DNA from: Oscillospiraceae bacterium
GTDB lineage: Bacteria > Bacillota > Clostridia > Oscillospirales > CAG-382
Reading direction: 5' to 3'
NCBI GenBank assembly: GCA_015063785.1
Contig: SVTM01000005.1
Span: 36,061 to 100,060 of the forward strand
Length of the DNA: 64,000 bases
The notes beneath the pieces were generated by a model, which ran no database searches, was not told the origin of the DNA, and worked only from the letters and a program-made list of their open reading frames with translations. The position numbers and the translations under genes are program-made. This document shows, one piece after another, positions 54,713 through 64,000 of this stretch (its first letter is position 1; the number at the start of each line of letters is the position of its first letter).

Positions 54713-56677
54713 TCATACGCAGTATTCTGTTCTGTCAATAACTGTCTGTTGCAATTCGGGGGTCAGACGGTTGAAATATTCCGAATAACCGCCGATGCGA
54801 ACGATGAGATTTCCGTGTACATCGGGATTTTTGACGGCATCAATCAGATCTTCCTTGCTGACGCAGGTTATTTGCATCTGCATACCGCCATTTTTGAAAT
54901 ATCCGTTTGCCAGAGCCTTTATGGTTTTTGATGCCTGCTTTGCGCTGAGTTTTACGTTAAGAATCGGTGTTCCAGGCATTTTTTGTTGGCAAAGGCTTGA
55001 TGCGCTGTTAAGAAGTGCTGTGATACCGGATTTGTCGTTTCCGTGTATTGAACCTATCGAATCGCATAAAGGATCGCCTGCGGCTCTGCCGTCGGGGGTG
55101 CCACCAACGCACTTTCCTGCATCGGTATATGTGGTAAACTGGATCGAAGCAGGCAAAAATTTTCCGCCCGAATATGGGATTTTGCCGTCAAACAAAGAGC
55201 ACACGTCAAAGGTCAGGCGCTGTGCCATGGTGTTGGCTTCGTCGGAATCTGTGCCGTGACGGGGGATTTCCTGAAAATTCAGGAAATTGACTCCCTCGTC
55301 AAGATGCTTTAACACCTGCTCGCCGCTGAACTTGCGACCGTCAAACACGAGATGCTTTATGACAAGCAGCGAATCCAAAACGTTGATAAGTCCTGCCAGG
55401 TTGATGACACTCCAGGTATATCTTGCGCCGCCGTCATTGTAGTCCTTTTCTTTTTCAATACAATCGTCGATAAGTAGTGTACGCATCGGCTGTGGGCGGA
55501 ACTGTGCACGCGATTTTTGGCATTCACACACCTTGTCAAGCACGGCGGATATCTCCTGACGGCATTTTTCGATAAACTCTTTGTAAAACCCATCAAAACT
55601 TTCGGCGGACGGCAATTTTTCTCGCATAAAACGTTCGAAGATCAGAGCGACGTTTATGCCCGCATCCAGCGAGCCGACGTTGCTGATGCCCGTGAGCATG
55701 GTTTCGGTACATCCGCCGCCGCAAAAACGAAGTCTGTCCTCCTTTGGAATATCGGGAAAAAGGTCGTAAAGGGCTTTTTGATAACCGTCTTCGTTGTATA
55801 AGCTGGGCGAGCCTCCGCCGGCAAGGATGGAATCTATCGCCGCATCCCAGATTTCCTGCGGCATATCGGGCGTGACTCTCAATTCAAGGCTTGGCCTGCG
55901 CATTCCCTTGCAGGCTTTAAGGCATTGCAGAGTCAGTGGATTGTATTCGGGACCAAGACATCCCGACCAGCCGTTGTTTGCGTCGATATTCCAGAAAAGA
56001 CATCTGAAGGTTTCGGTCATATCCTCGCCGCGGTAAAAATCAAAAAGATCGGCGTCGAGATGGCCTATATTGTCGCAACCGTCCATGTAATATACAAAAT
56101 TCCAGCAAACCAGAGCTTCATACAGCGTTTCGGCAGGGCCAAAGGGGACTTTTTCAAGCGCTTTGCACAATTCGCTTTTGGGAGCTCTTTTTTTCAGCAG
56201 ATCAAGAGAACGCCCGTGAAAGCTTTTTATTCCGTCAAGTACGTCCAAAAGGCCCTGGCGCAGATTATCGTTTTTCATTTTTTCCACGCGCTGACGGTAG
56301 GAGGAAAGTCCTTCGCGCACGATACGGCGGAAATTCGGAAAAGAGTGGGTGTACATATTGCCGCCGACGGTATGTTCGTTGGGGACAGTGAGTTTGTAAA
56401 CGTCAATATCCTGTCTTAAGACCTGAGTTGCGATCGGATCCTGCTGCCCAAGTCCGTCCCAGTCGACTGCTACCGTGTATGAATAGTCGGGGCGTACGCA
56501 CAGACCGACGTAAAAAGGTCCGCAGGGATAAAGAGGCTCGCCGCCGTATTCGGGCAGAGGACGGTTTTCAAGATATCGCCGTGTTGCCCGTGAAAAACGG
56601 ACGAAGGGCGATGCGTTCGGCTCCTCGTAAAAACCTGCCGCATAGTATTCGTTCAATTTTTTGAATCTTTCCACCAT
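54713..56677 (-). CDS. Short glycyl radical enzyme, unknown substrate
   Basis: A 654-residue glycyl radical enzyme. The radical Gly630 sits in RIGGYSEYF near the end. The catalytic cysteine, Cys323 in CGGGCTE, is followed by Glu two residues on, as in dehydratase- and lyase-type members (diol, choline, hydroxyproline) rather than pyruvate formate-lyase. The conserved TPDGRAAGDPLCDSIGSI and a SGITALLNS segment fit the family. Members usually have 700-900 residues, so the N-terminal part is short. No radical SAM activase is nearby. The ribosome site GGAGG stands before ATG 56677. It is divergent from an AraC gene. Confidence 0.92.
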   Translation of the reverse strand: MVERFKKLNEYYAAGFYEEPNASPFVRFSRATRRYLENRPLPEYGGEPLYPCGPFYVGLCVRPDYSYTVAVDWDGLGQQDPIATQVLRQDIDVYKLTVPNEHTVGGNMYTHSFPNFRRIVREGLSSYRQRVEKMKNDNLRQGLLDVLDGIKSFHGRSLDLLKKRAPKSELCKALEKVPFGPAETLYEALVCWNFVYYMDGCDNIGHLDADLFDFYRGEDMTETFRCLFWNIDANNGWSGCLGPEYNPLTLQCLKACKGMRRPSLELRVTPDMPQEIWDAAIDSILAGGGSPSLYNEDGYQKALYDLFPDIPKEDRLRFCGGGCTETMLTGISNVGSLDAGINVALIFERFMREKLPSAESFDGFYKEFIEKCRQEISAVLDKVCECQKSRAQFRPQPMRTLLIDDCIEKEKDYNDGGARYTWSVINLAGLINVLDSLLVIKHLVFDGRKFSGEQVLKHLDEGVNFLNFQEIPRHGTDSDEANTMAQRLTFDVCSLFDGKIPYSGGKFLPASIQFTTYTDAGKCVGGTPDGRAAGDPLCDSIGSIHGNDKSGITALLNSASSLCQQKMPGTPILNVKLSAKQASKTIKALANGYFKNGGMQMQITCVSKEDLIDAVKNPDVHGNLIVRIGGYSEYFNRLTPELQQTVIDRTEYCV

Positions 56678-56704
56678 ATCACAATACCTCCGATATATTT
56701 CTAC

Positions 56705-56733
56705 TTGTATTCTAACGCGGCTTGTGGTATTAT
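56705..56733 (+). promoter_or_regulatory. Promoter of the AraC gene at 56786
   Basis: TTGTAT (56705-56710), 17 bases, TATTAT (56728-56733). The interval 56678-56785 must also hold the glycyl radical enzyme promoter, which I cannot place. Confidence 0.55.
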
Positions 56734-56785
56734 TATAGTAATATTATTCCTGACTTCGAGTAAAAACGTTTCAAAAGGAGATTTT

Positions 56786-57652
56786 ATGGATATACCAAAA
56801 CTAAATATCGCCGTTGAAAAAGCGCATTGGAGCCACGCCGACAACTTTGAGGGCGGCGAATGCGAATATATAAAATCCTTTGTTCACCGAAATTATACAA
56901 TAGGATATCACACTCACAGTTTTTATGAACTCAATATTGTTCTGGGCGGCGAAGGGTGTCACTATATCAGACAAATGTCGTGCCTTGCAAAGCCCGGATG
57001 CGTTTTTCTAATCCCTCCGCACGTACAGCACGGATATATAAACAAGAGCGGTCTTGATGTTTATCACATGTTGATACACAGGGATTTTATTGACGATTGC
57101 TTTGCGGAATTTAAAAACACAGAAGGCTTCTTCCTTTTGTTTGAAACAGAGCCGTATCTGCGTGCGCACTATAACGAGAATATGTTTCTCACCCTGTCGC
57201 AAGGGGAGCTTGCGCAGATAAAGCAGGATATCGACGTGATAAACGAATGCGAGGCTTTGCACAACGCCAACCTTTTTATCAACGCCATCGCAAAAAAGAT
57301 ATTGTGCCAGCTTTGCCTTCTTATCACAAAGCAATCGGGTATTGCAGGCGATCATCTGCAGGCAAAAAAGGAATTGATAGGGGTTGCCGATTGTCTGAAT
57401 TACATCCATCAGAATTTCGGCGAAAAGCTGCCCGTTTCCGAGCTTGCGGACAAGCTTCATATGTCCCGTTCAACTTTTATACGGCAATTCACAAAGATCT
57501 GCGGATGCTCCCCCCACGAATATATTCAGCAGTACCGCATAAAAAAGGCAAGGGAATATCTGAAAGATCCCACAAAAACGGCATCGTTTGTGGCGCAGGA
57601 ATGCGGTTTTTACGATGCATCCCACATGAGAAAATATTTGTCGGCAGAATGA
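56786..57652 (+). CDS. AraC-family regulator divergent from the glycyl radical enzyme
   Basis: A 288-residue regulator. The N-terminal cupin has HTHSFYELNIVLGGEG and FLIPPHVQHGY. The C-terminal double helix-turn-helix (LPVSELADKLHMSRSTFIRQ; ASFVAQECGFYDASHMRKYL) is complete. It probably senses the substrate of the glycyl radical enzyme or a related metabolite. ATG 56786 follows AAAGGAG; the longer frame from 56705 begins in the -35 box. Confidence 0.9.
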   Translation: MDIPKLNIAVEKAHWSHADNFEGGECEYIKSFVHRNYTIGYHTHSFYELNIVLGGEGCHYIRQMSCLAKPGCVFLIPPHVQHGYINKSGLDVYHMLIHRDFIDDCFAEFKNTEGFFLLFETEPYLRAHYNENMFLTLSQGELAQIKQDIDVINECEALHNANLFINAIAKKILCQLCLLITKQSGIAGDHLQAKKELIGVADCLNYIHQNFGEKLPVSELADKLHMSRSTFIRQFTKICGCSPHEYIQQYRIKKAREYLKDPTKTASFVAQECGFYDASHMRKYLSAE

Positions 57653-57656
57653 AGGC

Positions 57657-57701
57657 AAAAGAGCGTACCCGTTTTTGTTTAAAACGGGTACGCTCTTTTT
57701 T
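57657..57701 (+). terminator. Terminator after the AraC gene
   Basis: A long stem, AAAAGAGCGTACCCGTTTT paired with AAAACGGGTACGCTCTTTT, followed by T. Very stable. Confidence 0.95.
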
Positions 57702-57770
57702 CTTGCAGACAATGAGATCGGATATTTCTTCAAATTGCAAAGCTTTGCCTCAAATCTCTGTTGGCAAAAT

Positions 57771-57815
57771 TTTCAGGCGGGTTGCCCAGACACAAGGAAA
57801 ATTGCCCCGTCCCCA
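57771..57815. repeat. REP-like remnant sharing a 14-mer with spoIVB tail 1
   Basis: GACACAAGGAAAAT at 57789-57802 recurs exactly at 62054-62067. The minus strand reads GGGGACGGGGCAATTTTCC before TTGTGTC, a pattern I associate with REP-type repeats in Firmicutes, which is inference. The rest of the 57702-57870 gap shows no gene. Confidence 0.4.
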
Positions 57816-57870
57816 AACTGTTCGCAAGTATTTCTTGTTGCGGTGGGGGATTTTGCGTTGTGATTGTGTA

Positions 57871-60642
57871 TTATTCAAAAGCTTCGCAGAGGGGGCTCAT
57901 ATTTTCATCCCAAAGCATAACTTTTATTTTTGCGTGATTGGCAAACTCCTCAAAGGTATAGTAATCTGCTTTTCCTCTATTCAAAAACAAGGGAACGGTA
58001 TTGACTTTTTCAAGTCTTCCGTATTCATCATAGCCTGCAATATAAACAATGTAGTTTCCCGCCTCGGGGCAGCACACTGTGATAACCCCAAAATCGTTGC
58101 TGCAGTCTGAGATATCAAAGTCTTCAACCTCGGTTACGTTGAAATGCGTGAATCCTGCCAGATATGAGCCGGTTGAATTGTGTGCATAAACGTAAATGCT
58201 ATAATCACGCATCTCGTATCTCGCGTTGTTTATGACAAGAGTTGCTGTACTTTCACCGGTTTCGCTGTCGGTTTCAAATCTTGTGCCAAATGCCGATTCC
58301 GAAAAGATATTCTTCATTTCGTCTTGGTCATATGCAACGGCTGTGCCGTCCTCATCGAGCTTTTCAAATCTCCACTCAACATCTGTCATATTTTTTGCTT
58401 TAAATGTAAAGGTCAGATCTTCGCCGTCAATACATTCCTGCGATTCAAGATTCTGTGTGATTTCGGGCTTTATTACCTTGAGTGTAAAAGCAACGGTGTT
58501 TTTGGAATTGAACGAAACCTTACCAAGCGCATTTTTCATCTCATATCCCACAGACATACTTCTTGCTGCCGACTCGGGTACATCCTTGAATGTAACGGTT
58601 GTTTTGTAAATGCCTGAGGGCATTATTTTATGTGACTGAACATATTCACAACCGGTTTCTTCGGCATATTCTTTGAGATTATAGAAATCGGTATTACTGC
58701 CCTGCTTTACCTGCACGATCCAGTCAACATTTTCCGCATAATCTGCCCACAGGGTAAAGGTTGCATCTCCGCCCGCTTCAAATTCTCCGCCGCTAAAGGA
58801 CAAAACCTGCGGCAGATCGCCAAATGTTGTTGTGGCATATTTCGAATTTGTCTTTGAACCGTCAGTACCTGTGATCTCACAGTAAAACTGTGCATTTGAT
58901 ACACCGTCTGCCGTCACCGTCAAGCAAGGAGTTGTTTCGCCCTGTATCTGTCCTTCGTCAAACAACATAGATATAAACTGTTGGGTAAGAGGAATTTTTT
59001 GTCCTGCCGCAACAACATACCATTGATATGCCGCAGCATGGTCGGCTGTAACGGAAAGCTTTGCATATTCACCGGGTTTTACCGTAGTTGACTTCGGCTG
59101 AGTAGTAATAACAGCCGCCTGGGGCTCCGGAAGCACGGTTACCTCATAAGTCTTGTTAAATGTGCTTACGTGTGCACTGCGGATTACGGAAATATTCACA
59201 TCTATTGTAACTCCGTTGGGATAATCTGCATAATTAACAATACCGTCTTCAATTATCCGGTTGGTTCCGTCTTCGCGGCGGGTTACGTTTGTTCTTACTT
59301 CAAATTCCCCTTCCATATAATCGGGAATACTGTATATCACCTCAAATGTTTCGGTCATAGATGTATCACGAACCAGTTGCGTAACCTTGGATTCGGGATC
59401 GGGCGTCGGGTAAAATTCGGTAGAAAGGAGCGAAGTACTTACAACCGTCAATCTCAGATGGCTGGTATTTACATCCTCAAGAGTACATTTAGACAGATTC
59501 AGTTGCTTTGTTTGATCAGAATCGACAATTTTCATATCAACTAAAGCAAAAGGAGAAATAAGGCTTGAAAACGGTCTTTCCAAAAGCTCAGAGAATGGAT
59601 CTCCAAATGTGCCGCTTAAACCGGAAACAGCAATACCGCTTCTTCCTATATATCCGATTGCACCGTCGAAAATTCCACCGTTAATTTTCGGGAAAGTGAG
59701 CTTATCAATTTCCGCACCGCTATATCCATTATAGGTATGCATATCCGTATAAGCACTATGGAAATGATGTATTGCATAACCGTCGGAGGCAAAAACACCG
59801 CCGTTTATCACAAGGTCAGTAGGACGGGACTGCAATTGTGCGACACCATCGGTACAGCATGTTCCAAATGCGCTTAGCTCACGCTGATTAAGTCCCTTCA
59901 TTCCCAACTCATCACCAAGCTCAGCTCCTGCATCCGTACCAAGAGACCTTGCAGCAAAAATGCCGCCGTTAATCTCAACGTGTCCCACGCTGTCAGCTAT
60001 TACGGCACCACGATAATTGGTGACAATGTTGTTTGTTCCGTTGCTGTTCAGGTTTACAATCCGTGACTTCAACTGAAAAAGCCCGTCATCAATGATAAGC
60101 TTGCAAATCGGTTCAGGGCAAAGAATGTATGGAACAGTATTTCTGTTGACAGAAGATTCTCTCACCAAAAGAGCAGCTATCTGAGTATCAGAATGGCGGT
60201 AAGCATCCATAAATATTCCACCGCCTCCAACAGAGTCGGTTATTCGTAATACCGATCCTACTTCGTTGTTGATACGGCTCATCTCGATTGAAATAAAATT
60301 CCCGTTTTTATTTTTGTCTTCGGGATTGATATCCGTACACGAAAGAACATGACCGTTGAAATCAAACGTAACATAACCGCACATCTGTACTGAACGACTC
60401 TCAACTTCATAAAAATCTGTTGAAGTGGTCAAATCCATATGAAGATCCTTATTAAGCTTCATTATGTAATGCGTATCAGGGTTATCAGACCACCAGACAT
60501 TATACCGGAAAGCTTCGTAAAAATCTCTCCACGATGAAATATAGATTACCTTGTAGTCTACATTTTCGGTGGATGCATACACAGCAGGAAATAAATTGAA
60601 CATGATAACAAAACAAAGCAATATTCCGATTATTCTTTTCAT
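57871..60642 (-). CDS. Large secreted protein: beta-helix then Ig-like domains
   Basis: A 923-residue exported protein, family not recognised. A signal peptide (residues 1-24, MKRIIGILLCFVIMFNLFPA then VYA-ST) is clear. Residues 40-350 contain repeated short beta segments (LIIDDGLF, VEINGGIF, LVINGGVF, PKINGGIF), one per turn, which indicates a parallel beta-helix resembling surface adhesins and pectin-binding proteins. Residues 480-880 look like three to four Ig-like domains. No LPXTG, dockerin or SLH ending is seen. It is 65 bases downstream of another secreted gene and probably co-transcribed with it. Confidence 0.82.
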   Translation of the reverse strand: MKRIIGILLCFVIMFNLFPAVYASTENVDYKVIYISSWRDFYEAFRYNVWWSDNPDTHYIMKLNKDLHMDLTTSTDFYEVESRSVQMCGYVTFDFNGHVLSCTDINPEDKNKNGNFISIEMSRINNEVGSVLRITDSVGGGGIFMDAYRHSDTQIAALLVRESSVNRNTVPYILCPEPICKLIIDDGLFQLKSRIVNLNSNGTNNIVTNYRGAVIADSVGHVEINGGIFAARSLGTDAGAELGDELGMKGLNQRELSAFGTCCTDGVAQLQSRPTDLVINGGVFASDGYAIHHFHSAYTDMHTYNGYSGAEIDKLTFPKINGGIFDGAIGYIGRSGIAVSGLSGTFGDPFSELLERPFSSLISPFALVDMKIVDSDQTKQLNLSKCTLEDVNTSHLRLTVVSTSLLSTEFYPTPDPESKVTQLVRDTSMTETFEVIYSIPDYMEGEFEVRTNVTRREDGTNRIIEDGIVNYADYPNGVTIDVNISVIRSAHVSTFNKTYEVTVLPEPQAAVITTQPKSTTVKPGEYAKLSVTADHAAAYQWYVVAAGQKIPLTQQFISMLFDEGQIQGETTPCLTVTADGVSNAQFYCEITGTDGSKTNSKYATTTFGDLPQVLSFSGGEFEAGGDATFTLWADYAENVDWIVQVKQGSNTDFYNLKEYAEETGCEYVQSHKIMPSGIYKTTVTFKDVPESAARSMSVGYEMKNALGKVSFNSKNTVAFTLKVIKPEITQNLESQECIDGEDLTFTFKAKNMTDVEWRFEKLDEDGTAVAYDQDEMKNIFSESAFGTRFETDSETGESTATLVINNARYEMRDYSIYVYAHNSTGSYLAGFTHFNVTEVEDFDISDCSNDFGVITVCCPEAGNYIVYIAGYDEYGRLEKVNTVPLFLNRGKADYYTFEEFANHAKIKVMLWDENMSPLCEAFE

Positions 60643-60707: not shown

Positions 60708-61667
60708 TTATTTTGCCGGGTACTTTTCGGGATCCATGACAGACAAGATCCTGTCATACAGATAGTTTTTTTCTTCGGCGGTTGTTCTTGAGTCGTCGTA
60801 GCAAAGCTCAGCAACCGTAAAAACACTTACATTTTGAGATTGCATACCGTATTCGGTCACACTTTCACCGTCTTTTTTGTAGGTGATATAGGGTACCGCG
60901 GTGTACTCTTCGGCATAGTGTGTTTCGTCTATCTGCAGCACACATACCGTGAAGTATACATACTCGTCGGTAATCTTGAAAAGATTTACGGCAGGTGCCG
61001 TTTTTGCCTTCTTTGTTTTTCCGTCAATGACGGTGACAAAATCTTTTACGAGCTTTTCGTCACCAAGATATTTCTTTGGCAATACAACGCTTCCGAAACC
61101 AAGATCCGTATCCGATGGAGACTGGGGCTGCTCAAGAGTTTCATAAACCGATTTCGGAATAGAGAAAACAAATCTCAGGCCCTGCTCACCGTTCATTTTT
61201 ATCTGTGCGCCTTCAAAGGTCATGCAGGTGGGTGTATTGTATTCAACTGCTTTTACATCGGGAGTGGAGCTGCCCGATGCACCCATTTTGAGATATAAAG
61301 TTTTGCCTTCGATATCTGAAGTCCCGAGGGCGTTTTCTATTCTTGAGCGCTCTATCAAAAATTCGTATTCGCCGCAAGGCTCGTCGATCTGATCTATGTA
61401 GATGATGCTTTTTTCAAAACCATCCGTGTCCGATATGTCTTTGCCGAGAAGCAAAAGAGACACGCTTCTGGTCTTTTCGGGAACGGTGTATTTTATTCTG
61501 GTTATGACCGTGTGTTTATCACGTTCACCGAATATGTCTGAGTATTCTTCAAATTCAACCGAGTCGATCGTGACAACGGCATCATCCACCGCAAGACACG
61601 GAACCACAGACACAAGCAGCAGTATCAGCATTGCTGCAAAACTGAGATAACGATAAAATGTCTTCAT
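60708..61667 (-). CDS. Secreted protein of unknown function
   Basis: A 319-residue exported protein with a signal peptide (residues 1-27, cleaved near CLA-VD). The middle and C-terminal part includes QGLRFVFSIPKSVYETL, FGSVVLPKKYLG and TAVPYITYKKDG, a pattern I recall from large secreted proteins of Clostridia but cannot name. No enzyme motif is evident. It is the first gene of a two-gene unit with the 923-residue protein. Its promoter is at 61771-61799. Confidence 0.78.
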   Translation of the reverse strand: MKTFYRYLSFAAMLILLLVSVVPCLAVDDAVVTIDSVEFEEYSDIFGERDKHTVITRIKYTVPEKTRSVSLLLLGKDISDTDGFEKSIIYIDQIDEPCGEYEFLIERSRIENALGTSDIEGKTLYLKMGASGSSTPDVKAVEYNTPTCMTFEGAQIKMNGEQGLRFVFSIPKSVYETLEQPQSPSDTDLGFGSVVLPKKYLGDEKLVKDFVTVIDGKTKKAKTAPAVNLFKITDEYVYFTVCVLQIDETHYAEEYTAVPYITYKKDGESVTEYGMQSQNVSVFTVAELCYDDSRTTAEEKNYLYDRILSVMDPEKYPAK

Positions 61668-61888: not shown

Positions 61889-61923
61889 AAATGCTCACCT
61901 ATATTAAATATAAGTGAGCATTT
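61889..61923. terminator. Stem-loop at the end of spoIVB tail 1
   Basis: AAATGCTCAC (61889-61898) pairs with GTGAGCATTT (61914-61923), with inner TATATT/ATATA pairing. It stands 4 bases from the tail's stop codon and is homologous to the stem at 63727-63758. Confidence 0.85.
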
Positions 61924-61926
61924 TTA

Positions 61927-62058
61927 TTATTTAATTTTCTCCGCTTTGATGAGCATATTTTCTATAAAAATCCCGTAACCACGTGTAGGATCGTTAACGA
62001 ATACATGAGTTACTGCACCAACAAGCTTGCCGTTCTGGATTATCGGCGAACCCGACAC
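61927..62058 (-). pseudogene. spoIVB 3' fragment, copy 1
   Basis: The last 44 codons of a SpoIVB-type S55 serine peptidase, without the rest. The frame reads VSGSPIIQ around the active-site Ser, then [18 protein letters not shown] and ENML, ending in AEKIK and a stop. SpoIVB is the intermembrane sporulation signalling protease, which normally exceeds 400 residues. The upstream frame in this copy runs on to MWQATKQ but is unrelated. The bases TTGTTGTCCC (minus strand, 62074-62083) precede it by 15 bases, as in copy 2. It lies directly after the SDR stop codon on the same strand. Confidence 0.85.
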
Positions 62059-62092
62059 AAGGAAAATCGGCGTGGGACAACAAAAAATATGC

Positions 62093-62806
62093 TTACATTT
62101 GTTTTCGGCAACCGTCGACAAGGTAATTCTGGCCCGAAATATAGCTTGCTTCGTTGCTTGCCACAAACAAAATCACATTTGCAATTTCATCATAGGTGGC
62201 GGCGCGGCCCACAAACGAAAAATCTTTCATGGCGTCGCTTCCGTCGGGAGCTACGCTTCCGGGCGAAACGCAATTTACGGTGATACCTTTGTCGGACACA
62301 GCTTTTGCAAGCGCTTTTGTAAAGGATATAACCGCACCCTTTGACATGGAATAATCAACAAACCAGCTGAGACCGTAAACACCCGCAACCGAGCCGATGT
62401 TTACAATTCTGCCATAGCCGTTTTCGATCATGGACGGCAAAACCGCATGCGACAAATACATGGTGCCCAAAATATTAACGTCTATTACTTTCTTCCACTG
62501 CTCTGAAGAAGTGCTTGCAAAATCGGAAGCAGGGAATACCGCTGCATTGTTTATAAGAATATCTGTTTTTCCGAATTTTTCAGCCGCCTTTGCAATCGCG
62601 TTTCGTGCGGCGGCCTCATCAGATACGTCAAAATTTATTGCCATAAAGTTTTCTGTATATTTTTTTATCTCTCCGCAGGTTTCGGAAAGATCCGAAATGT
62701 CCGAAACAACAACATTTGCCCCGTTTTTTGCAAAGCCTATGGCTGTCGCTCTTCCGATACCCTTGGCGGCACCTGTTACAAAAGCTGTTTTACCTGTAAA
62801 ATCCAT
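62093..62806 (-). CDS. Short-chain dehydrogenase/reductase
   Basis: A 237-residue NAD(P)-dependent oxidoreductase. The cofactor motif is [10 protein letters not shown] (residues 10-19), with DILINNAAV in the middle and the catalytic Tyr-Lys in YSMSK (about residues 149-153). The C-terminal [11 protein letters not shown] matches 3-oxoacyl-ACP reductase and sugar or alcohol dehydrogenase types. Substrate unknown. It is divergent from an AraC regulator at 62957 and lies between the two spoIVB tails. The ribosome site is AAGGAGG before ATG 62806. Confidence 0.93.
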
Positions 62807-62834
62807 AGTATCAACCTCCTTGTTTTATAAATAC

Positions 62835-62935
62835 AGTATACCACTTAAAAACCATTGTTTAAATGACTGAAAATACATTTAATTTAGCCGAAAATGTACA
62901 AAGCGTTTGACAAAACCGCGTGTTTTATATACAAT
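62835..62935. promoter_or_regulatory. Divergent promoters and inverted repeat between SDR and AraC
   Basis: + strand: TTGACA (62907-62912), 17 bases, TACAAT (62930-62935). Minus strand: TTTAAA (62858-62863), 17 bases, TATACT (62835-62840). An inverted repeat TTAAATG (62859-62865) and CATTTAA (62876-62882) overlaps the SDR -35, a candidate operator. Confidence 0.7.
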
Positions 62936-62956
62936 ATAAAAAGCGGAGGTGAAATT

Positions 62957-63712
62957 ATGGACGAAGAAGCTTTTGTTATTACCGAGTTTTTATCGATAAG
63001 TAAGCCGATAAACCATCAGGGAATAAGTTTTTATATTAACAAACGAGAAAGCTCTGCTTTGATTTTTCCTATACACGGGGAAATCGAATTTTCGTGGGAA
63101 ACGGGAAAGGTGATTGCCGATGCCGACCACCCCGTTTTTATTCAGGAGGGCATGAGTTACTTAAACTCGTGCATGGAAAATGCACAAAGCATAATGATAA
63201 ACATCAAAGCAAAAAGCAACAAAGAAAAGATTTTTTGGCTTTTACCGCCCGACAGAGAGCATTTGCAAAAATGTTATGACGAAATAATAGTTCTGAATGC
63301 AAATCCTACGGCAAGAAAAAGATCCAGAATATTTGAAAAAATATATCAACTGCTCGGGGAATGTTTCCCGTATGAACCCGGAGACAACAACTCGTTATTG
63401 TCCCCCGCGCTTGAAACAATTGAAAAATTTTATAACAAAAGTGACCTGACTCTTGATTTCCTGGCTGAAAGCTGTAACATAAGCAAATCGTATATTCACA
63501 AACTTTTCAGAAAAGAGTTTGGAATGACTCCTTTTCAATATATTACAAGAATACGCATGAATCAGGCGAAAACTTTGCTGCTCGAGATGTTTCCTGTGGG
63601 GGAAGTTGCTCTTATGGTGGGATATTCCGACATTTATCAGTTTAGCAGGGCATTTAAACGATTTTATAAAATTTCTCCTGACAAATTCAGATTCTCAAGA
63701 AAACCAATATGA
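62957..63712 (+). CDS. AraC-family regulator between the spoIVB tails
   Basis: A 251-residue regulator with a C-terminal double helix-turn-helix (LTLDFLAESCNISKSYIHKL; GEVALMVGYSDIYQFSRAFK) and a cupin-like N-terminus lacking strong His pairs. ATG 62957 follows GGAGGTG; the longer frame from 62894 starts upstream of the promoter's -35. It probably controls the divergent SDR. Confidence 0.9.
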   Translation: MDEEAFVITEFLSISKPINHQGISFYINKRESSALIFPIHGEIEFSWETGKVIADADHPVFIQEGMSYLNSCMENAQSIMINIKAKSNKEKIFWLLPPDREHLQKCYDEIIVLNANPTARKRSRIFEKIYQLLGECFPYEPGDNNSLLSPALETIEKFYNKSDLTLDFLAESCNISKSYIHKLFRKEFGMTPFQYITRIRMNQAKTLLLEMFPVGEVALMVGYSDIYQFSRAFKRFYKISPDKFRFSRKPI

Positions 63713-63726
63713 TGCTTGTCCATCAA

Positions 63727-63758
63727 AAACGCTCGTCTAAATCTATAGACGAGCGTTT
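63727..63758. terminator. Terminator after AraC and at the end of spoIVB tail 2
   Basis: AAACGCTCGTCTA (63727-63739) pairs with TAGACGAGCGTTT (63746-63758), A-rich on the left, so a T-run follows on the minus strand. It is homologous to 61889-61923 and likewise 4 bases from the tail's stop. Confidence 0.92.
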
Positions 63759-63761
63759 CTC

Positions 63762-63893
63762 TTATCTAAATTTCTCTGCTTCCGACAGCATATTTTCAAT
63801 GAATATTCCATAACCCCTCGTCGGATCGTTTACCATAACGTGAGTAACTGCACCAACTAATTTTCCATCCTGAATAATCGGACTACCTGACAC
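63762..63893 (-). pseudogene. spoIVB 3' fragment, copy 2
   Basis: The same 132-base piece of spoIVB as copy 1, reading [19 protein letters not shown], then [17 protein letters not shown] and AEKFR before the stop. By eye count it agrees with copy 1 at 98 of 132 bases and 37 of 43 residues, and most differences are silent. In-frame TAA and TGA codons lie immediately upstream, so it cannot be translated as a fusion. TGTTGTCCC (63909-63917) precedes it at the same 15-base distance. Confidence 0.85.
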
Positions 63894-64000
63894 GAGTGTT
63901 TGTCATTAGGGACAACAGTTTTACAAAAACAAAGAAGATCAACATTTTCAGCTGGTCTCCTTTGGCTTATTTATTCGTTATCGCTGAGATTTCTGCCGCA
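63894..64000 (-). other. Right edge: possible 3' end of another minus-strand gene
   Basis: Two minus-strand frames enter from the edge and close at 63971-63973 (CGRNLSDNE stop) and 63968-63970 (AAEISAITNK stop). Neither is long enough to name. A 20-codon open frame with an AAAGGAG site runs from 63945 to 63883 across the tail in another frame; it is probably not a gene. Confidence 0.3.

Follow-up and report, generated by a model that had tools for sequence, protein, structure and literature searches.

Detached spoIVB 3' ends in an Oscillospiraceae genome as probable traces of successive cassette insertions

The DNA analysed here (hereafter the window) is a stretch of 64,000 nucleotides from an Oscillospiraceae bacterium (GCA_015063785.1, contig SVTM01000005.1) that carries, close to its right end, two detached copies of the 3' end of the gene spoIVB. 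The source assembly (G000) comprises 2.5 Mb in 67 contigs, and the window forms the right end of one of them, C49. We consider it probable that the two copies, referred to as tail1 and tail2, are displaced ends of spoIVB, left behind by successive insertions of gene cassettes at a single point of the gene and most likely produced by serine recombinases acting in trans. An initial annotation of the window had offered repeated site-specific insertion as one of two models, and this model is supported by an intact gene on another contig (C27), by the layout found in relatives and by a half-site shared by most junctions.

The spoIVB array of the window, its source genome and its relatives

Both tails lie where the initial annotation had placed them (Table 1), each consisting of 44 codons including the stop, and they show the identity it had reported, which amounts to 73.5% of bases and 86.4% of residues. 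The mostly silent character of their divergence is also borne out: the 35 base differences are split 8/3/24 over codon positions 1, 2 and 3, and they leave 21 codons silently changed and 6 residues altered. The common upstream arrangement, TGTTGTCCC followed by 15 bases and GTG, precedes both tails, and a stem-loop follows each on its 3' side, with energies of -19.0 kcal/mol for tail1 and -23.1 kcal/mol for tail2 (z scores, computed against 200 shuffles, in Table 1). Pfam domains support the short-chain dehydrogenase (SDR) and the AraC-family regulator read between the tails. Of the proposed unit of about 190 bases, the sharing stands, but its limits do not: what behaves as a single cassette is the whole stretch from a tail to the next half-site, the short motif that precedes a tail, its left edge being blurred by exchange within tails. 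Complete cassettes are delimited here, with thresholds of our own, by the end of a tail and the next half-site.

The intact gene had been expected past the right edge of the window, and it was indeed found on C27, with a further detached tail behind it. A search of the source genome with the tail (E<=10) gave five matches, four of them strong (E<=1e-19) and the fifth with an E value of 0.25. The strong matches are tail1, tail2, the detached tail3 (C27:162-290) and the end of the intact gene (C27:2021-2149), which extends over C27:2018-3250 and adjoins rpoB and rpoC. Cargo differs between these copies, and a GH32 gene sits between intact spoIVB and tail3, toward the end of C27 that faces C49. 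In its first 154 bases, C27 matches the beginning of a cassette with an RpiR-type regulator in genome G051 (99% identity), and C27 and C49 therefore probably abut over an unassembled piece of the array; on the strength of this match, the array probably resumes at C27:1 after the gap. Starting from the gene, the order would be spoIVB, GH32, tail3, the RpiR cassette (cut by the gap), tail2, AraC-SDR, tail1, the open reading frames (ORFs) ORF319 and ORF923, and the flank. The count of four tails may increase, because the end of C49 is an assembly break within the array.

The initial annotation had proposed to look for the shared unit in relatives, and the same layout does recur there. With the 44-residue tail as query, matches were found in 57 of 63 family genomes and in 368 of the 396 from the order, 30 of these 368 having two or more; regions were fetched for all 30, though not for every matching contig. 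At least one detached tail preceded by the half-site or a variant of it occurs in 20 of the 396 genomes, which represent 10 families, and this number is a lower bound because genomes with a single match were left out. The remaining 10 multi-match genomes contain a second type of split, pieces at contig ends or unclear copies. Among the 20 array genomes, spoIVB is whole in 17 (16 as judged by the fetched regions and G191 by its open frame), is split at a second site in G200, and runs into contig ends in G052 and G310. Wherever a detached tail of the first-site type and intact spoIVB share a contig, the tail lies downstream and on the same strand (20/20 genomes, 15 from the family and order samples and 5 from a further search). 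The largest array found, in a metagenome-assembled genome (MAG) from roe deer (G419, JAFTUC010000018), continues from intact spoIVB through six matched tails and one partial tail over about 28 kb.

The second insertion point is situated at the residues VTHV. In G237 (C16:72656-100339; L094-L096), the gene is split there by a stretch of about 28 kb that resembles an integrative and conjugative element (ICE), with a serine recombinase-like gene beside the detached tail and a spo0A-like gene next, both named by eye. Another second-site case, in G318 (C2:3075186-3086517; L097), departs from the same-strand rule of the first site: its two pieces of spoIVB, separated by about 11 kb, are on different strands. 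In three genera, an identical second-site right end of 118 bases (positions 1-118 of L070, L078 and L105) adjoins a different spoIVB tail each time.

Junctions, cassettes and recombinase-bearing elements

At a typical junction, a 23-base half-site, termed P (consensus GTTGTCCyyTAyTTGACmACACTC), is joined to the TG of the codon that precedes the serine we take to be the catalytic one of SpoIVB. This codon is ATG in the intact gene, and in 31 of 34 first-site junctions its first base is not A. The other three (L064, L067 and L080), which have ATG, are without a half-site and have the appearance of second alleles, remnants or truncated genes. With a matrix built from all 31 non-A junctions, 28 of these score at least 20, tail1 of the window being among the poor scorers; in a scan of the window with a matrix trained on cassette junctions only, the half-site of tail2 alone scores 12 or more (1 of 127,942 positions).

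The half-site leads almost exclusively into spoIVB tails. A strict pattern run over 84,980 genomes, for which we estimate about one chance match, was found in 44 distinct contexts; 42 of these run into a spoIVB tail or at any rate into its beginning, in some cases frameshifted or shortened, and the exceptions without a tail are L187 and L193. In L193 (G205 C7:3807-3828), the half-site is reversed and lies about 160 bases behind intact spoIVB, with no tail after it. The 37 genomes behind these matches are all titled MAG, and their named hosts are sheep, deer, goat, cattle, horse and rabbit ('Lapin'). Across the fetched loci, the matrix (score >=20) yields 73 distinct junctions, of which 65 satisfy a loose rule for the start of a tail (L187 passes as well), with G as first base in 51, C in 18, T in 2 and A in 2. 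A loose exact pattern gave 12 matches in 30 genomes, 11 of them at tails, and its reversed control gave 5.

The half-site contains the inverted repeat GTTGTC-N7-GACAAC. A tyrosine recombinase acting on attC-like sites, which this repeat had suggested, was dropped, with no dedicated search, once this junction proved to be preceded by serine recombinase genes in other elements, and hairpin ends of the HUH/IS200 type were set aside, the cassette family lists (best 25 each) including no transposase. Loci with palindromes of 48-50 bases (GTTGTCC...GGACAAC) are L172, L185, L189, L193, L201, L202, L206, L208, L211, L213 and others; several of the palindromes stand directly after spoIVB tails at the position of the terminator. 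There are 17 distinct ones in the fetched loci (both strands) and none in a reversed control (one strand); their left arm resembles the junction half-site, as in a complete serine-integrase attP.

The same junction is used by elements that carry recombinases. In nine contigs from viral and phage collections (L123-L130 and L216), tandem serine recombinase genes precede the half-site and a spoIVB tail; three such genes, the trio, are complete or nearly so in most of them, the first being cut in L128 and shortened in L130. Resolvase and Recombinase domains (PF00239, PF07508) were found in all six proteins tested, which come from four contigs. Among the 396 genomes of the order, with up to three candidates scored per genome, the third gene (E<=1e-100) is present in two only: in G273, where junction and tail follow directly and spo0A comes next, and in G301, where they follow after about 1 kb; in ten of the eleven trio cases, the distance from recombinase to junction is about 150 bases or less. 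The initial annotation had proposed to look for a recombinase next to spoIVB: none was found adjoining the gene, and the recombinase genes belong to these other elements at the same site.

With the cassette-only matrix, the junctions of trio elements reach scores of 14-33. Before the junction, L124 and L216 agree in 1500/1500 bases, after which they have only GTG in common and the rest of the tail is 67.6% identical; L126, L128 and L129 are 99.3-99.6% identical before the junction and then share runs of 5-8 bases. Since one element thus diverges right after xTG in different hosts, the recombinase-bearing elements cross over at TG, in keeping with the central dinucleotide that serine integrases use (PMC5595907). 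A crossover at codons 17-19, at which mosaic tails had hinted, is ruled out for these elements by the same divergence.

A looser pattern found 13 stretches in viral contigs; seven reach a spoIVB tail with serine recombinase genes in front, and the other six lead elsewhere, with no serine recombinase genes listed. Of ten phage records that match the tail, six were fetched, giving one trio with a detached tail and five intact spoIVB genes. Searches of the viral contigs for the left ends of trio elements gave one contig with intact spoIVB and one pattern match, and recovered no spoIVB 5' half of a trio element. A spare tail on trio elements had been expected and was given up, as both trio genomes have a single one.

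The 32 complete, non-identical cassettes measure 0.46-6.9 kb and contain 82 ORFs of at least 110 residues, among which the six trio proteins have no relatives at E<=1. Family assignments for these ORFs draw on the best 25 of 55, 55 and 47 Pfam families and the best 25 of 32, 39 and 39 PHROG families. Within these, AraC-type DNA-binding domains are found in at least 13 ORFs and glycyl-radical (PFL-like) enzymes in at least 5, and GH32, GH5, GH31, GH2, NanE, ROK and FGGY kinases, FAD oxidoreductases, EamA transporters and Fic/Doc are rarer; cassettes often carry catabolic genes together with AraC regulators. No integrase is among the listed Pfam and PHROG families of the 82 ORFs (intI was not searched in whole genomes), and a crude scan for integrase motifs gave one match, in a sugar-isomerase-like ORF. 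Cassette sequences of the Doc/Fic type, 0.7-0.8 kb long and 74-85% identical, recur close to the arrays of several genomes, in L073, L076, L085, L092, L105, L177, L201 and L209; toxin-antitoxin cassettes are also described from integrons (PMC8618304).

Cassettes are shared between genomes and appear in different orders. AraC-SDR (98.1% identical) and ORF319-ORF923 (98.4%) are present in both the source genome and G050 in swapped order; tail2 also precedes AraC-SDR in G050, where the start of the tail is truncated. The piece of the RpiR cassette shared with G051 contrasts with spoIVB genes that are 63% identical over 600 bases. Three genomes share a cassette with an AAA_14 domain at 89-94% identity over 1.5-1.8 kb, their spoIVB genes having 51% base and 42-45% residue identity, and in five further pairs the cassettes are 76-89% and the spoIVB genes 50-59% identical. 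In four very similar cassette pairs, the match falls from 26-30 of 30 bases up to GTG to 13-19 of 20 bases in the tails that follow. The left edges are less sharp: AraC-SDR travels with its tail, the identity of the ORF319 cassette begins in the terminator, and that of the RpiR cassette begins late in the tail. Within the source genome, the tails are mosaics, as the intact tail and tail2 are identical at bases 2 to 62 and divergent thereafter, and tail3 and tail2 are unlike in the first half and alike in the second. Given these unsharp left edges and mosaic tails, homologous exchange between tails does occur, and it may also move cassettes.

The array features of the window are compiled in Table 1. 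Past its far end, at 54800-57652, the window contains an AraC-like regulator and an apparent glycyl-radical-enzyme gene (named by eye) with no tail; these cargo-like genes are possibly an older cassette.

Table 1. Array features at the right end of the window (positions in the window)
Feature	Position	Strand	Basis
Far array boundary, flank (..CCTTGTGTCTGG|GCAACC..), without spoIVB tail	57700..57820	-	95% to G050 over 79 bases
Cargo of ORF319 cassette, 923-aa protein (ORF923), weak Ig-like match below Pfam cut-off	57871..60642	-	Pfam
Cargo of the cassette next to tail1, 319-aa protein (ORF319), without Pfam family	60708..61667	-	Stretch of 98.4% identity in G050, there immediately after spoIVB
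Terminator-like stem-loop after tail1	61890..61922	-	z -6.9
Tail1, detached last 44 spoIVB codons, codon 2 changed to GTG	61927..62058	-	Sequence comparison
Half-site junction before tail1 (GTTGTCCC + ACGCCGATTTTCCTT), atypical	62059..62081	-	Junction-matrix score <12
Cargo, short-chain dehydrogenase (SDR)	62093..62806	-	PF13561/PF00106
Cargo, AraC-family regulator of SDR cassette	62894..63712	+	PF12833/PF00165
Terminator-like stem-loop after tail2	63727..63758	-	z -7.0
Tail2, detached last 44 spoIVB codons	63762..63893	-	Sequence comparison
Half-site junction before tail2 (GTTGTCCCTAATGACAAACACTC)	63894..63916	-	Junction-matrix score 36.3
End of a further cassette, cut by contig end	63917..64000		Terminus of contig C49

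Insertion at the half-site and its alternatives

In the mechanism we favour, a circular cassette would carry the half-site P, joined via TG to a spoIVB tail of its own. The TG of the cassette would recombine with that of the chromosomal spoIVB, in the codon before the presumed catalytic serine, under the action of serine recombinases supplied in trans by visiting mobile elements. The incoming tail and terminator would then complete spoIVB, and the old tail would end up behind the cargo with P before it. Because the whole gene regenerates the target, a next cassette could enter, and an array would build up. We infer the mover, since no close relative of the third recombinase turned up in the array genomes and tails also exchange homologously. 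The site on such a circle would be of a half-site/tail (attR-like) type, and its pairing with the gene would differ from the usual attP x attB reaction; CcrAB, a two-recombinase system, is reported to recombine non-canonical site pairs (PMC5595907).

Several observations weigh against this mechanism. The window itself is not a clean example, as the matrix gives its tail1 junction less than 12 and no spoIVB tail stands at the outer end of its array. Of the 73 junctions, 46 are open through the tail end and 27 lack an open tail, so that a good third of the detached tails have decayed. The gene-preserving design is seen in no recombinase-bearing element: both trio genomes have one tail each, the detached one, and trio elements therefore seem to split spoIVB rather than to bring a spare end. 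In the array genomes searched (22 + 8), we found no close relative of the third recombinase; their serine recombinases are only 23-41% identical to it, some of the assemblies being incomplete, and 7 of the 22 and 2 of the 8 have no match at E<=1e-8. Neither a circular form nor a pair of strains with an empty and a filled site was seen. As regards mobility, the identity of 51% between spoIVB genes may overstate the distance between hosts, because spoIVB is variable; less similar cassette pairs show no step at the right edge, and the left edges lie off TG in two of three comparisons of moved cassettes, as homologous recombination would give.

The last point belongs to the alternative that survives best, although we regard it as rather unlikely: cassettes could move mainly by homologous recombination via the tail repeats, with incoming DNA that bears a tail at each end, the half-site being a fossil of a founding recombinase-borne element. 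The mosaic tails of the source genome, the left edges within tail or terminator and the lack of a close third-recombinase relative in the array genomes searched would all fit. However, the 23-base half-site is kept while the cargo directly before it is unrelated between most cassettes, which implies that new cargo has been joined precisely to it many times; moreover, the match drops at GTG in the four similar cassette pairs, and the recombinase-bearing elements end in the same half-site.

It is very unlikely that the tails mark sporulation-controlled intervening elements, comparable to skin or gin, which interrupt spoIVB until the mother cell excises them. The trio elements and the ICE-like element at the second site do leave one separated tail, and gin, a Bacillus cereus element free of phage genes, encodes three serine recombinases (PMC5595907). 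Yet spoIVB is whole in the source genome and in the 17 of 20 array genomes, so no excision is needed, and no trio relative is encoded in the complete cassettes.

The second model of the initial annotation, a dispersed repeat (resembling a miniature inverted-repeat transposable element or a repetitive extragenic palindromic sequence) that captured a spoIVB tail with its terminator and spread by transposition, would account for about 190 bases common to copies with differing DNA in between. We reject it as highly improbable, as the copies are not spread over many unrelated loci: they stand behind spoIVB on the same strand in all judgeable genomes, nearly all strict-pattern contexts lead into a spoIVB tail, and the four copies of the source genome represent the gene and its array, allowing for the assembly gap. 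An artefact of metagenome assembly is hardly credible: C49 and C27 do break within the array, many other contigs end at tails and all strict-pattern matches lie in MAGs, but the same structures recur in many independent assemblies, some deep within long contigs, such as the G341 array, which occupies 373-376 kb in a contig of 433 kb, and several tails of G419 within a contig of 71 kb.

Relation to known systems and possible significance

The displaced-end arrays resemble several known systems in part. Like staphylococcal cassette chromosome (SCC) elements and composite islands, for which the cited text describes large serine recombinases that insert at one conserved gene, tandem elements and catabolic cargo such as the arginine catabolic mobile element ACME (PMC7029136), they occupy one conserved gene. 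However, their target is spoIVB rather than orfX/rlmH, every unit includes a gene end of 132 bases along with a terminator, the units are small (0.5-6.9 kb), and the 32 complete cassettes hold no trio relative (ccr sequences were not used as queries). The tail repeats flank each complete cassette by definition and are not SCC repeats. Integrons and clusters of attC sites lacking integron integrases (CALINs) likewise form tandem arrays at one site with a short conserved cassette end, sharing and reordering, and CALINs, as described in the cited sections, also lack a recombinase in the array (PMC8618304). The spoIVB arrays are tandem arrays of exchangeable cassettes at one site too, the exchange being deduced from sequence comparison. 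They differ in having a tail and half-site instead of attC/attI (attC was not searched for), in candidate enzymes that are serine and not tyrosine recombinases, and in the many cassettes with several genes and a regulator of their own.

Streptococcal triplet elements share with the trio elements three tandem serine integrases with PF00239 and PF07508 and insertion in genes. The cited parts of their description give direct repeats of 2-8 bp (PMC4701971); in the trio elements, the right junctions share 3-8 bases with TG in common (their left ends were not recovered). The triplet elements are described as disrupting mutT, traG and hsdM (PMC4701971), whereas the spoIVB cassettes keep their target whole, and the triplet feature is held by the recombinase-bearing spoIVB elements and not by the cassettes of the window. 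Similarly, gin, which is not a phage, lies in a sporulation gene of B. cereus and encodes three serine recombinases, but it splits gerE and is excised in sporulation, its girA/girB operon lies apart from girC, and the cited sections mention no cassette array (PMC5595907). Genomic islands at tRNA genes are reported to restore their target and to mark their far end with the displaced fragment (PMC4383910); by contrast, spoIVB is a protein gene, the candidate enzymes are serine recombinases, and units without a recombinase are stacked repeatedly. We therefore assign the cassettes of the window to none of integrons, SCC and triplet elements, as they lack two of the SCC features tested and the triplet feature belongs to other elements. 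The open-licence literature searched, subscription papers lying outside its scope, yielded no description of spoIVB as an integration site.

On balance, we lean towards regarding spoIVB arrays as an integron analogue built on serine recombination, in which docking keeps the gene and renews the site, and through which catabolic operons and their regulators circulate among families of gut Clostridia. If so, spoIVB would be a dedicated exchange point for catabolic operons in these bacteria, and the arrays would explain the small SpoIVB fragments and the contig breaks beside spoIVB in such assemblies. The half-site together with a spoIVB tail would serve as a tag for reading mobile metabolism from any assembly, including genes of unknown function. 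Finally, cassette arrays, which are known from integrons and composite SCC, would have arisen with a different recombinase and with a design that restores the gene and renews the target.

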